In this document: positions 2,087 through 32,828 of the stretch, in pieces
How the letters are laid out: each line of letters begins with the position of its first letter
Numbering within the stretch: position 1 is the first letter of the stretch
NCBI GenBank assembly: GCA_001799715.1
Contig: MGTZ01000042.1
Span: forward strand, 20,501 to 54,226
Length of the DNA: 33,726 bases
Source of the DNA: Elusimicrobia bacterium GWB2_63_16
GTDB taxonomy: Bacteria; Elusimicrobiota; Elusimicrobia; Elusimicrobiales; UBA9959
Reading direction: 5' to 3'
Position numbers and translations under genes: made by a program
The notes under the pieces: model-generated
Told to the model about the DNA's origin: nothing
Database searches by the model: none
The model's input: only the letters and a program-made list of their open reading frames with translations

Positions 2087-3583
2087 ATGTCCGAAAAATT
2101 CATCATCGTTCTCGACCAGGGCAGCTCCAGCTCCCGCGCCCTGGCCTTCACCCCCGAGGGCGAGATCCGCTACAAAGCCCAGCGCAAGCTCGAGGCCGCC
2201 TATCCCCGCCCGGGCCTGGCCGAATACGACGCCGAGAAACTTTACGCCAGCCAGGCCGACAGCCTGGCCGAAGTGCTGGCCAAGCTGCCCCCCGACTCCG
2301 AGGTGGCGGCGCTGGGCATCGCCGCGCAGCGCTCCACCACGGTCTTCTGGGACAAGGCCACCGGCGCCCCCCTGGCCCCGGCGCTGAGCTGGCAGGACGG
2401 GCGCGCCCTGGAGCTGCTGGGCCGCGTGCAGCTGTCCAACACGGCCATCCACGATATCACCGGCCTTTACAAGACGCCTTATTACAGCGCCTCCAAGATG
2501 GCCTGGGCGCTGGAGAACTTCCCCGAGGTGAAGGCCGCCGCGGCCGAGGGGCGCCTGCAGATGGGCCCGGTGGCCACCTATGTGGTCTGGCGCCTGTCCG
2601 GCGGCAAGGTCTTCGTCACCGACCCGTCGCAGGCGCAGCGCACGCTGCTGTTCAACCTGCGCCGGCTGCGCTGGGAACCGAAACTGCTGGCCGCTTTCGG
2701 CATAGACAAGGCCCTGCTGCCCGAGATAAAGCCCAGCGTGGGCCGCCTCGGCCACGTAGAGCTGGCCGGCCGCCGCGTGCCCGTGACCGCCATGCTGGGC
2801 GACCAGCAGGCCGCCATGCTGGGGCTCGGCCTCGAGGCCCCCAACTCCGCCGCCCTCAATTACGGCACCGGCGCCTTCCTGCTGGTGAACACCGGCCGCA
2901 CGCCGCTCAAGATCCGCGGCCTGCTCAATTCTTTCGGCTGGCAGGAAGGCAAAGGCCGCAAGAACATCCGCTATTTCACCGAGAGCACCGTGAACTCCGC
3001 CGGCACCGCGCTGGAATGGCTGCGCCAGAAGTTCGGCCTCTTCGACGATATCGGAGAAGTGGACGGCATGTGCCGCAAGTCCAAGAACCGCCTGCACTGC
3101 CTGCCGGCCATCGGCGGGCTGGGCGCGCCCTACTGGGACTTCTCGGCTTTCACCACCTTCGCCGGCTTCTCCCCCCACTCCGACAAGTACGACGTCGTGC
3201 GCGGCGTGACGGAGGGCATCGCCTACATGGTGGCCGACGCCTTCGACCTTGTGAAGAAGAAGGGGCTGAAGATAGAGGAACTCAAAGTTTCCGGCGGGCT
3301 GTCGCGCATAGACTGGCTGCTGCAGTTCCAGGCCGACGTCACCGGCGCCCGGCTGACGGCGCTCGAAGAGAGCGAGGCCACGGCCATCGGGGCCGGTCTG
3401 GCCGCCGCCCGCGGCCTGGGGCTCGCCCCGCAGTGGACTTCTAAAGTCTCTACCCGCGTCTTCACCCCCGCCATCGGCGAGGAGGAGCGGCAGAACCTGA
3501 TCAAGGGCTGGCGCATCTTCGTGCGCAACGTGCGGCGCACCAGCCGCGACCTGCGCAAGCTCAGCATCCTCCCTCACGCGTAG
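2087..3583 (+). CDS. FGGY carbohydrate kinase, glycerol kinase-like with altered substrate site
   Basis: A 498-residue protein, full length for a glycerol kinase. It has the N-terminal phosphate-binding VLDQGSSSSRA (Asp10), QRSTTVFWDK (81-90), WQDGR (102-106), PYYSASK (131-137) and GDQQAAMLG with the catalytic-base Asp239. It should phosphorylate a polyol or sugar with ATP in the cytoplasm. Compared with E. coli GlpK, the glycerol-contacting Arg, Trp, Tyr and Asp are all present, but the Glu that follows the Arg (RE in GlpK) is Ser83 here (RS). Glycerol may therefore not be the true substrate. No glpF, glpD or sugar transporter gene is near. The gene starts one base after the nuclease stop. 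Its own stop, TAG at 3581-3583, is the first three bases of a palindromic repeat. Kinase family is certain; substrate is not. Confidence 0.85.
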   Translation: MSEKFIIVLDQGSSSSRALAFTPEGEIRYKAQRKLEAAYPRPGLAEYDAEKLYASQADSLAEVLAKLPPDSEVAALGIAAQRSTTVFWDKATGAPLAPALSWQDGRALELLGRVQLSNTAIHDITGLYKTPYYSASKMAWALENFPEVKAAAAEGRLQMGPVATYVVWRLSGGKVFVTDPSQAQRTLLFNLRRLRWEPKLLAAFGIDKALLPEIKPSVGRLGHVELAGRRVPVTAMLGDQQAAMLGLGLEAPNSAALNYGTGAFLLVNTGRTPLKIRGLLNSFGWQEGKGRKNIRYFTESTVNSAGTALEWLRQKFGLFDDIGEVDGMCRKSKNRLHCLPAIGGLGAPYWDFSAFTTFAGFSPHSDKYDVVRGVTEGIAYMVADAFDLVKKKGLKIEELKVSGGLSRIDWLLQFQADVTGARLTALEESEATAIGAGLAAARGLGLAPQWTSKVSTRVFTPAIGEEERQNLIKGWRIFVRNVRRTSRDLRKLSILPHA

Positions 3584-3707
3584 GGGACGCTCATTCCTAA
3601 TTCCTAATTCACAGCGGAAAAAACGCAAAAAGAGGGCAGGTCTTTTTCTATGCGAAAAAGACCTGCCCGTTTCAGCCTAATTAGGAATTAGGAATGAGCG
3701 TCCCCTA
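3581..3707. repeat. 127-bp palindromic element, arms 29 bp, TAG-ended
   Basis: Perfect 29-base inverted repeats lie at 3581-3609 and 3679-3707. Each arm begins TAGGGGACGC and carries two TTCCTA copies (TTCCTAATTCCTAATT). The 69-base core holds a second perfect 15-bp hairpin (3634-3648 with 3654-3668). The terminal TAG on the left is the stop codon of the kinase gene, and the terminal TAG on the right, read on the minus strand, is the stop codon of trxB. The same arm design recurs at 32179-32298 and 32802-32828. This looks like a non-autonomous, palindromic mobile repeat (MITE- or REP/BIME-like); no transposase is in the window. Confidence 0.9.
3615..3668 (-). terminator. Hairpin likely terminating the trxB operon
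   Basis: Inside the palindromic element a 15-bp perfect stem (GGGCAGGTCTTTTTC at 3634-3648 with its complement at 3654-3668) has a five-base loop. Read on the minus strand the stem is followed by T-rich runs (CTCTTTTTGCGTTTTTT), which suits intrinsic termination of the leftward trxB operon. Read on the plus strand it has no T-run, so it should terminate the kinase operon less well. Confidence 0.5.
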
Positions 3708-30933: not shown

Positions 30934-32181
30934 ATGAGTTTGCCGCCCGGTTTCTGGATCCTGGCCGCCGCCGAGGGGCTGCTGACGGCCGGTTACGCCA
31001 TTTCTTTCCCTTTCCTGGCCGTCTACTTGAGCGGTGAGCGGGGCATGCCCATGGCCTGGACCGGCGCTTTCCTGGCCCTGTCCATGCTGGTCTCTTCGGC
31101 GGCGCAGTTCATAGGCGGCGAGGTGTCAGACGCCATCGGCCGCCGCAAGGTGATGGTCTGGTCCATGGGCCTGCGTACGCTGCTGATAGGCGTGATAGCC
31201 TGGGCTATCTATACCCGGGCCCCGCTGGGGGTGGTTTTCCTCTTCCACCCGTTGGGCATGTTCATCGGCTCCTTCTTCCACCCCGCCGCGCGGTCCTGGG
31301 TAGCCGACTTCACGCCGCCCGCCGGCCGCATGCGGGCCTACGGCTTCCTGCGCATGGGCAATAACGCCGGCTGGGCGCTGGGCCCGGCGCTGGGCGGCCT
31401 GCTGGCCGAGGGCTCGTATTCACTTATGTTCTTTGTGACGGCGCTGGTGTTCGGCATCTGCACGGCCATAGTGTGGCTGTCGGTGCGCGACGTGCCGGGC
31501 CTTGCGAAGGGCCGCTTTGTTTCACCGGGGCTGGCCGGGGCCGCGCACGCGCTATCCAATAAGATTTTCCTGCGCTTCTGTGTCTTCTCCTTCATCATGA
31601 GCGCGGCGATGAGCCAGCTGGTTGTGTCCAGCTCCCTGTATTCCAAAGCCTATCTCGGCTTCTCCGAGCGGGAGATAGGCCTGCTGTTCTCCATCAACGG
31701 CCTGATGGTGGTGGTGTTTCAGTATTTCGTGACCGAGCTGCTGGGGCGGAGACGTATCACCACGGGGCTGGCGGCGGGCGCGCTGTGCTACGCCGCGGGC
31801 TACCTGTGCTTCGGCTACGCGCCCTCCTTCTTCTACGCTGCGGCGGCCATAGTGGTGGTGACTTTCGGCGAGATAGCGGTGTCGCCTGGCATGCAGGCGC
31901 TGGGCGCCAACATGGCCCCGAAGGCCGAGAAGGGCCGCTACCTGGGCCTGCAGGGACTTTTTCAGCAGGTGGGCAGTTCCGCCGGCATCCTGATAGGTTC
32001 CAACGCCATCGGCTTCATCAGCCCGGTTTTTCAGCAGGGCCCCTGGTTCATCATCGCGGCGCTGGCAATAACTTCCTGCTTTGGCTTCCTGGGCCTGGGC
32101 CGCCGCCTCACCGCCGACCAGGACGGCCTGCGCTCCTCCCCGCCTCCCCCCGCCCCCGAACAAGCCACCGAACCCGCCTAG
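30934..32181 (+). CDS. Major facilitator superfamily transporter
   Basis: A 415-residue protein with about 12 hydrophobic segments and the MFS layout. The loop between TM2 and TM3 carries the GG-E-SDAIGRRKVM motif (a variant of GxLaDrxGrr), and the C-terminal half repeats weakly. It is probably a drug- or metabolite-exporting carrier, but its substrate cannot be predicted. I chose the ATG at 30934 because the first membrane helix starts eight residues later and an extended -10 lies just before it; an upstream in-frame ATG at 30877 would add 19 residues. The C-terminal tail is Pro-rich (SSPPPPAPEQATEPA). Its stop codon, TAG at 32179-32181, is the first three bases of a palindromic repeat. Confidence 0.88.
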   Translation: MSLPPGFWILAAAEGLLTAGYAISFPFLAVYLSGERGMPMAWTGAFLALSMLVSSAAQFIGGEVSDAIGRRKVMVWSMGLRTLLIGVIAWAIYTRAPLGVVFLFHPLGMFIGSFFHPAARSWVADFTPPAGRMRAYGFLRMGNNAGWALGPALGGLLAEGSYSLMFFVTALVFGICTAIVWLSVRDVPGLAKGRFVSPGLAGAAHALSNKIFLRFCVFSFIMSAAMSQLVVSSSLYSKAYLGFSEREIGLLFSINGLMVVVFQYFVTELLGRRRITTGLAAGALCYAAGYLCFGYAPSFFYAAAAIVVVTFGEIAVSPGMQALGANMAPKAEKGRYLGLQGLFQQVGSSAGILIGSNAIGFISPVFQQGPWFIIAALAITSCFGFLGLGRRLTADQDGLRSSPPPPAPEQATEPA

Positions 32182-32298
32182 GGGACGCTGCTTCCTATCT
32201 TCCTAACCATTTATGGCGCGGGGTCCGCTTTTTTTCAAAATAAAGCCACCTGCCTTCCCTAGCGGCTTCATTAGGAAGATAGGAAGCAGCGTCCCCTA
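32179..32298. repeat. 120-bp palindromic element, arms 28 bp, TAG-ended
   Basis: Perfect 28-base inverted repeats at 32179-32206 and 32271-32298. Each arm begins TAGGGGACGCTGCTTCCTA and repeats TTCCTA. The terminal TAG on the left is the stop codon of the MFS gene. On the right the arm ends CCCCTA and is followed by AATTTTG, not by a gene end. The core (32207-32270) has a weak hairpin (AAGCC...GGCTT). The arms differ slightly from the element at 3581-3707 (GCTGC for GCTCA), so the two belong to one family but are not copies. Confidence 0.9.
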
Positions 32299-32746: not shown

Positions 32747-32828
32747 GGCTCCGTTCCTGCATATTATAAAACGAGACTGCCGGGCTTACCGGTGGTCTCG
32801 TTTAGGAAGATAGGAAGCAGCGTCCCCT
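32744..32828. repeat. Decayed palindromic element
   Basis: The right arm, 32802-32828 (27 bases), is identical to 32271-32297. On the left, TAGGGCTCCGTTCCTGC (from 32744, the GNAT stop codon) resembles a degenerate left arm. Between them is an imperfect hairpin (CGAGAC...GTCTCG, about 32772-32800). Unlike the intact elements, the right outer end reads CCCCTGC rather than CCCCTA. Confidence 0.6.

Follow-up and report, generated by a model that had tools for sequence, protein, structure and literature searches.

Why should the outer edges of palindromic repeats coincide with the stop codons of the genes beside them? This question is raised by two elements in the 33,726-nucleotide stretch of DNA analyzed here (the window), which belongs to an Elusimicrobiota MAG (G000). 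An inverted-repeat scan of the whole window bore out the initial annotation's perfect 28-29 bp arms: those of element 1 (3581-3609 and 3679-3707) are 29 nt each with 69 nt between them, those of element 2 (32179-32206 and 32271-32298) are 28 nt each with 64 nt between them, and the two elements rank first and second among 31 inverted repeats in the window. Their RNA folding z-scores, taken on both strands, were -14.3, -12.6, -9.1, and -11.1, and the only Rfam match in the window at the gathering threshold was one tRNA. For 25 loci encoding relatives of the MFS protein whose gene lies beside element 2, most records are titled Elusimicrobia, Elusimicrobiota, or Elusimicrobiales. The features that bear on the question are as follows, with the border of element 1 inferred from 126 element ends.

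3582 to 3706, no strand assigned: element 1, consisting of a AGGGGACGCTCATTCCTAATTCCTAATT arm, a spacer, and the inverted arm, with T 3581 and A 3707 taken as host bases
3581 to 3583, plus strand: TAG stop codon of the kinase gene, host T followed by AG of element 1
3705 to 3707, minus strand: TAG stop codon of trxB, host T followed by AG of element 1
3634 to 3668, minus strand: hairpin in the element 1 spacer followed on that strand by a T-rich tail, resembling a terminator for trxB
32180 to 32297, no strand assigned: element 2, consisting of a AGGGGACGCTGCTTCCTATCTTCCTAA arm, a spacer, and the inverted arm
32179 to 32181, plus strand: TAG stop codon of the MFS gene, host T followed by AG of element 2
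32802 to 32827, minus strand: lone arm of this family past the GNAT gene, adjoining a hairpin

The kinase, trxB, and MFS stops thus coincide with arm ends as first described, and the arm end at 32298 indeed lies away from any gene end, its GGGG border falling 30 nt upstream of the GNAT start. A fourth, degenerate case proposed at the GNAT stop was weak and unconvincing: the segment 32744-32771 aligned with the arm better than its own shuffles did (P 0.002), but 14 of 163 other TAGGG sites in the examined G000 loci did just as well. The arm at 32802-32827 is complete and starts 55 nt past the GNAT stop.

Which bases belong to the repeat was examined with 63 arm pairs (126 ends), 27 from G000 and 36 from G002-G005, the latter fetched with patterns that favor TTCCTA families. 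In 43 of the 63 pairs, the arms matched perfectly for 25 nt or more (25-29 nt). Because A directly precedes GGGGACG at 102 of the 126 ends and TA at just 43, the repeat most likely starts AGGGGACG, and the T belongs to the flank; a border TAG is then a host T joined to AG of the repeat. TAG as part of the repeat was rejected, as the first flank base (-2) is T at only 50 of 126 ends, or 41 of 116 once border-TAG ends are removed. Both ends carry the A in 41 of 63 elements. Identical flanking 2-mers occurred in 13 of 63 elements and identical 3-mers in none; nine of the 2-mers were TA, and for these 9 of 63 elements a 2-base TA duplication may be conceivable. No GTAG or CGTC REP head was seen in the arms. 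The family is repetitive in G000, where TAGGGGACGC has 27 copies compared with 13 for a reversed-pattern control and GGGGACGCNNNTTCCTA with up to two mismatches has 86 compared with 12, and the exact sequence GGGGACGCTNNTTCCTA is present in 16 of 32 genomes of the genus. Inverted repeats of related families with the tips GGGACAG, GGGGACAGG, or GGGGTCAGG lie near gene ends in relatives (L158, L170, L144, L278, L279, and L308).

A different kind of repeat region was noticed at L081 (G000, contig C55, 66000-85493) and L088, both of which look array-like. The 14 genes called in L081 are all on one strand with low coding scores; a hairpin of the form CCGCCGGG...CCCGGCGGTTTTGTTTTG, often followed by TAGAAT, recurs, and single arms in one orientation stand directly ahead of several of the hairpins. 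The region is possibly a gene-cassette array.

The elements in the window are miniature inverted-repeat elements, and Y1 (HUH) transposase genes are found in longer copies that share their arms. G000 has four Y1_Tnp (PF01797) genes, all above the Pfam curated cut-off, and 27 of 32 genomes of the genus have a match. Those on contigs C52, C19, and C60 each lie between inverted arms, of three families, with the arms around the C52 gene belonging to the family of element 2; the fourth, on C20, has repeats with another tip. The NCBIfam model for REP-associated tyrosine transposases matched all five proteins tested (4e-17 to 1e-18; 62-67 bits, below its 80-bit cut-off). In the C52 protein, the one in which residues were read, the HUH motif NHFH and the Y motif YIHLNP fit the NH[YF]H and Y[IV]HLNP listed for TnpAY1 subclass 2.1 in Table 1 of PMC6006769. 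Two of four long proteins had a C-terminal Bac_DnaA_C match (1.9e-6 and 4.9e-5) and the other two had weak C-terminal HTH matches, all below curated cut-offs, and a profile search found no C-terminal HTH of the Bac_DnaA_C, HTH_23, or HTH_28 type in the short C20 protein. A recognized transposase frame was present in 36 of the 47 stretches scanned and was accompanied by a strong repeat with a recognized tip (29), a repeat with another tip (2), a short repeat (1), or no repeat (4). Among the 29 tabulated elements, 18 have the transposase stop within the right arm, 5 have a frame that reads through this arm, and 6 show neither arrangement. The C52 gene (L080, 3188-4189) reads through its right arm, so that residues IRKIGSSVP near its C terminus are encoded by the repeat.

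Comparison with published systems indicates that these elements belong to a known class, the REPIN-like TIRYT/TIRtron elements, and differ in their tip. The sections of Di Nocera et al. 2013 (PMC3733652) on TIRYTs and TIRtrons describe tyrosine transposase genes flanked, as here, by long inverted repeats rather than GTAG REPs, with repeats that overlap the transposase 3' end and also occur as genome-wide dimers. The same sections give these repeats a GGGGWSAS motif, reported for the majority and not for all, which the main tip here, GGGGACG[C/T], misses by one base, whereas other families of the genus (GGGGACAG, GGGGTCAG, and GGGGACAC) fit it. Quentin et al. 2018 placed 20 of 26 TIRYTs in subclass 2.1. 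Relative to what those sections report, the present elements are in Elusimicrobiota, and their placement at stop codons was measured and compared across species. REPINs and RAYTs, in the portions consulted of Bertels and Rainey 2011 (PMC3116915), PMC8049555, and Nunvar et al. 2010 (PMC2817692), likewise consist of two inverted units forming a hairpin with a variable spacer, described as highly diverse in a REPIN paper, are thought to be mobilized in trans by a Y1 transposase as we propose here, and often have REPs right at the rayt stop codon, as with the transposase genes here. In contrast to the units described there, the arms here lack a GT[AG]G head or a short GC-rich REP palindrome and are inverted repeats instead. 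The passages of PMC3733652 on GTAG REPs report that these lie near gene 3' ends and that their ends often supply TAG to flanking ORFs; there the GTAG head lies within the repeat, whereas here a host T is joined to the element's AG. The idea that a repeat supplies TAG is therefore real but only partly new, being in print for GTAG REPs. One of our literature searches, on Elusimicrobia with REP-associated tyrosine transposase, found no paper.

We measured distances to stops with genes called by our own codon-model script, which was looked over on the window. Among 68 3'-facing ends, 43 lie from -25 to +25 nt of a stop, 13 at 50-59 nt, and 11 further away; the element at L084 is inside a called gene, making its distance of -835 meaningless. 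A single 3'-facing end, that at +25, falls 18-49 nt from a stop. The null placed elements uniformly in their own gaps for 47 tandem or convergent elements with both neighbors within 400 nt, leaving out 7 divergent elements, 9 with a missing, distant, or overlapping neighbor, and ends more than 2 nt inside a gene. With the classes -1, 18-49, and 50-59 picked after the distribution had been seen, we observed 9 ends exactly at -1 (null 3.0 +/- 1.4; 1 of 5,000 simulations as high), 1 at 18-49 (null 15.1 +/- 3.1), and 13 at 50-59 (3.3 expected); ends at -1 to 17 numbered 33 against 24.4 expected. An intrinsic-terminator pattern precedes every one of the 13 ends at 50-59 and 17 of 20 ends at 26-300 nt. 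Transposase-bearing elements, some of whose loci overlap stretches of the 63-pair set, had 24 of 33 3'-facing ends at -22 to +18 and 4 of 23 5'-facing ends within 25 nt. The elements are therefore concentrated on or within about 18 nt of stops or just past an intrinsic terminator, and the suggestion of insertion at or just after stops holds up as an excess over uniform placement in their own gaps.

These counts also weigh on whether the TAG coincidence arises by chance from short gaps. The gaps are indeed short, and TA precedes 43 of 126 ends. Yet the simulation speaks against chance, transposase-bearing elements add 3 ends at -1, and frames running into an element end at a border TAG in 10 of 17 cases, with 0.13 expected for each (P 1.4e-5); had every end a T, the same frame test would give P 0.027, which leaves chance some room. 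We consider chance very improbable.

A stop was made from host T and element AG at 10 of the 68 3'-facing ends, nine at -1 and one at -2 with the tip AGGGACG, and 7 of 68 use a stop inside the arm. Read from outside, seven consensus arms contain stops in one frame (two families), two frames (four), or three frames (one). The proposal that the element's own TAG serves as a stop thus stands insofar as a border TAG arises, but the T is a host base and not part of an element triplet. Stops were compared with those of relatives, the own locus being left out of the counts. The kinase stop, whether TAG, TGA, or TAA, falls on the same codon in 29 of 29 other loci, 3 of which carry an element. So does the MFS stop in 17 of 20 relatives (an element lies nearby in 2 of the 17), the L076 stop in 27 of 27 other loci (at least 5 have an arm at this stop), and the stop of the right gene at L068 in 26 of 27. 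At L076, the A of TAG most likely comes from the element because TGA is commonest (17 of 28 loci, own included) and G000 and G011 have TAG with an arm. The left gene at L068 keeps its stop codon position in just 5 of 19 loci, and trxB in 0 of 28, with 27 proteins 3-5 residues longer and 1 a residue shorter; G000 TrxB ends 3 residues before that of its close relative G011. Stops at the kinase, MFS, and L076 genes are therefore mostly at the same codon without this element, an outcome that the initial annotation had itself named as refuting and that counts against pure recruitment, and the idea that insertion preserves the protein end applies to most genes but fails for trxB and the left gene at L068.

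The initial annotation had viewed the repeats as modules retained because they bring a stop codon, a terminator, and 3'-end protection. REPs near stop codons may have a role in ribosome stalling, although the results of our literature searches did not show it. In keeping with a module, the hairpins are strong on both strands, the element contributes all or part of the stop used at 17 of 68 3'-facing ends, and the spacer of element 1 contains the terminator-like hairpin. However, 4 of 6 genes tested keep the codon position of their stop in most relatives, and the intrinsic-terminator pattern lies inside the element at 1 of 43 near-stop ends, a count on which we rejected the element as an intrinsic terminator. 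Moreover, such a pattern was found in or within 150 nt beyond the element at 13 of 43 such ends versus within 150 nt of the stop at 88 of 181 control gene ends, the windows compared being unequal. Retention as a 3'-end module thus appears quite improbable.

Elements recur at the same gene ends across species. At the L076 stop, G000, G011, G004, G003, G031, and G012 have arms of different families beginning no more than 5 nt away, with the first arm alone seen in G011, G031, and G012; G029 has a TAGGGGACG start there. An element of another family sits right behind a TAA at the MFS stop in the G003 stretch L199 and record L167. In the convergent gap at L068, a short element runs from stop to stop in G000, elements of transposase length are found in G015 (stop to stop) and G016, and G012, G018, and G027 have starts of other families; G011, G005, G024, G002, and G001 have a terminator, missing in G000, and no element. 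Long inserts there in G014, G009, G020, G013, and G019 contained no such repeat. At least seven further orthologous gaps (L062, L064, L067 twice, L078, L085, and L181 with L197) have arms of different families by species, partly at the same base. A separate repeat of about 150-300 nt with ...GGTGTG... and ...CCGG motifs was also noticed in the same intergenic gaps of relatives (L302, L348, L350-L352, L364, L365, L367, L368, and L370).

Repeated hits on the same stops could mean targeting rather than selection, with a transposase that prefers single-stranded or hairpin DNA at gene ends, hits the same stop again, and sometimes replaces the terminator hairpin. The different arms on the L076 stop in six genomes, the varied elements in the L068 gap together with the terminator absent there from G000, and elements directly behind terminator T-tracts are all consistent with such targeting. 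So is a control gap (window 12684/12747), chosen as element-free in G000, in which G002 has a transposase-bearing element against both stops. However, the recurrently hit loci were chosen for their G000 element, and of the 14 other loci where both genes flanking this sole control gap could be located, 1 had an element at the stops; several of these gaps are long and were searched within 60 nt of the stops. Selection against hits in genes, promoters, and terminators would cluster survivors likewise, and because a terminator-like hairpin lies inside the element 1 spacer, terminator loss is not general. Active targeting is a possibility we take seriously, while judging it somewhat doubtful.

Elements corresponding in position to element 1 are present in G002 and G003. 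The much closer G011 has none and, like other relatives, retains a terminator there, which suggests independent insertion. Yet the spacer of G000 shows a weak relationship to those of G002 and G003 (z 3.6 and 3.3), which would speak for common origin with loss or exchange. At L075 (3085-3180) and L346, an element and its spacer are common to G000 and G003, with the closer G011 empty; left of the L075 element G000 is nearer to G011 than to G003 (94 versus 88%), and right of it about equally near to both (78 and 79% over 300 nt), a pattern that may reflect exchange by recombination.

Each G000 element has a unique spacer between near-identical arms. No related pairs were found among the 27 G000 spacers at E 0.05; 26 occur once in G000, and the remaining one, of 13 nt, was too short to search. 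In G011, 1 of the 27 was clearly found (96% of 96 nt), a search that short or diverged spacers could escape. Capture of spacers from elsewhere in G000 was rejected, as the search returned the 26 self matches, an 86% match in the hairpin of element 1 itself, and apart from these E values of at least 0.45; in G011, a 27-nt stretch of DNA without arms matches a G000 spacer at 93% (E 0.0016), all others having E of at least 0.46. Rewriting of arms in place around a persisting spacer was disfavored by 17 orthologous pairs: spacer z was 8.1, 5.9, 4.2, 3.6, 3.3, and 2.1 in the six with 26-27 of 27 arm bases equal and -1.6 to 2.5 in the eleven with more divergent arms. The unique spacers of G000 are a poor fit to simple whole-unit copying and call into doubt that copying always involves the entire unit. 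Three elements in G002 (L177, L179, and L184), all lying next to a terminator, have one 17-21 nt spacer in common, which resembles whole-unit copying. A combined scheme, with gene-end targeting by the transposase, AG-first ends remaking TAG from any stop codon, terminator hairpins sometimes swapped for the element, and arms spreading with a new spacer at each insertion, strikes us as rather unlikely.

With considerable confidence, we favor a model in which these are non-autonomous elements of the TIRYT/TIRtron class whose survivors lie at gene 3' ends by selection, perhaps with targeting. A Y1 (HUH) transposase, encoded between such arms and with a possible HTH-like region at its C terminus, would act on arms built of the common tip AGGGGACG[C/T] and a family-specific tandem motif. 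The AGGGG... end would join flanking DNA with a mild preference for T and no consistent target duplication, as the flank statistics indicate, and the insertions that survive are those on or beside stops or just past intrinsic terminators. Since every stop starts with T and the element starts with AG, landing behind the T of a stop would give an in-frame TAG whatever the old stop, and arms of several families would add stops in one to three frames, so that most landings would leave the protein end nearly unchanged. Against this model, trxB shows that a landing can shift the protein end. Gene 3' ends would then be safe sites maintained by purifying selection, perhaps together with targeting.

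These findings give a cross-species picture of how stop-restoring ends let hairpin elements land on the last codon of a gene with little harm in crowded bacterial genomes. Furthermore, because different families recur at the same stops, it becomes possible to test whether gene ends are sought out by Y1 transposases or are simply where selection leaves the elements.
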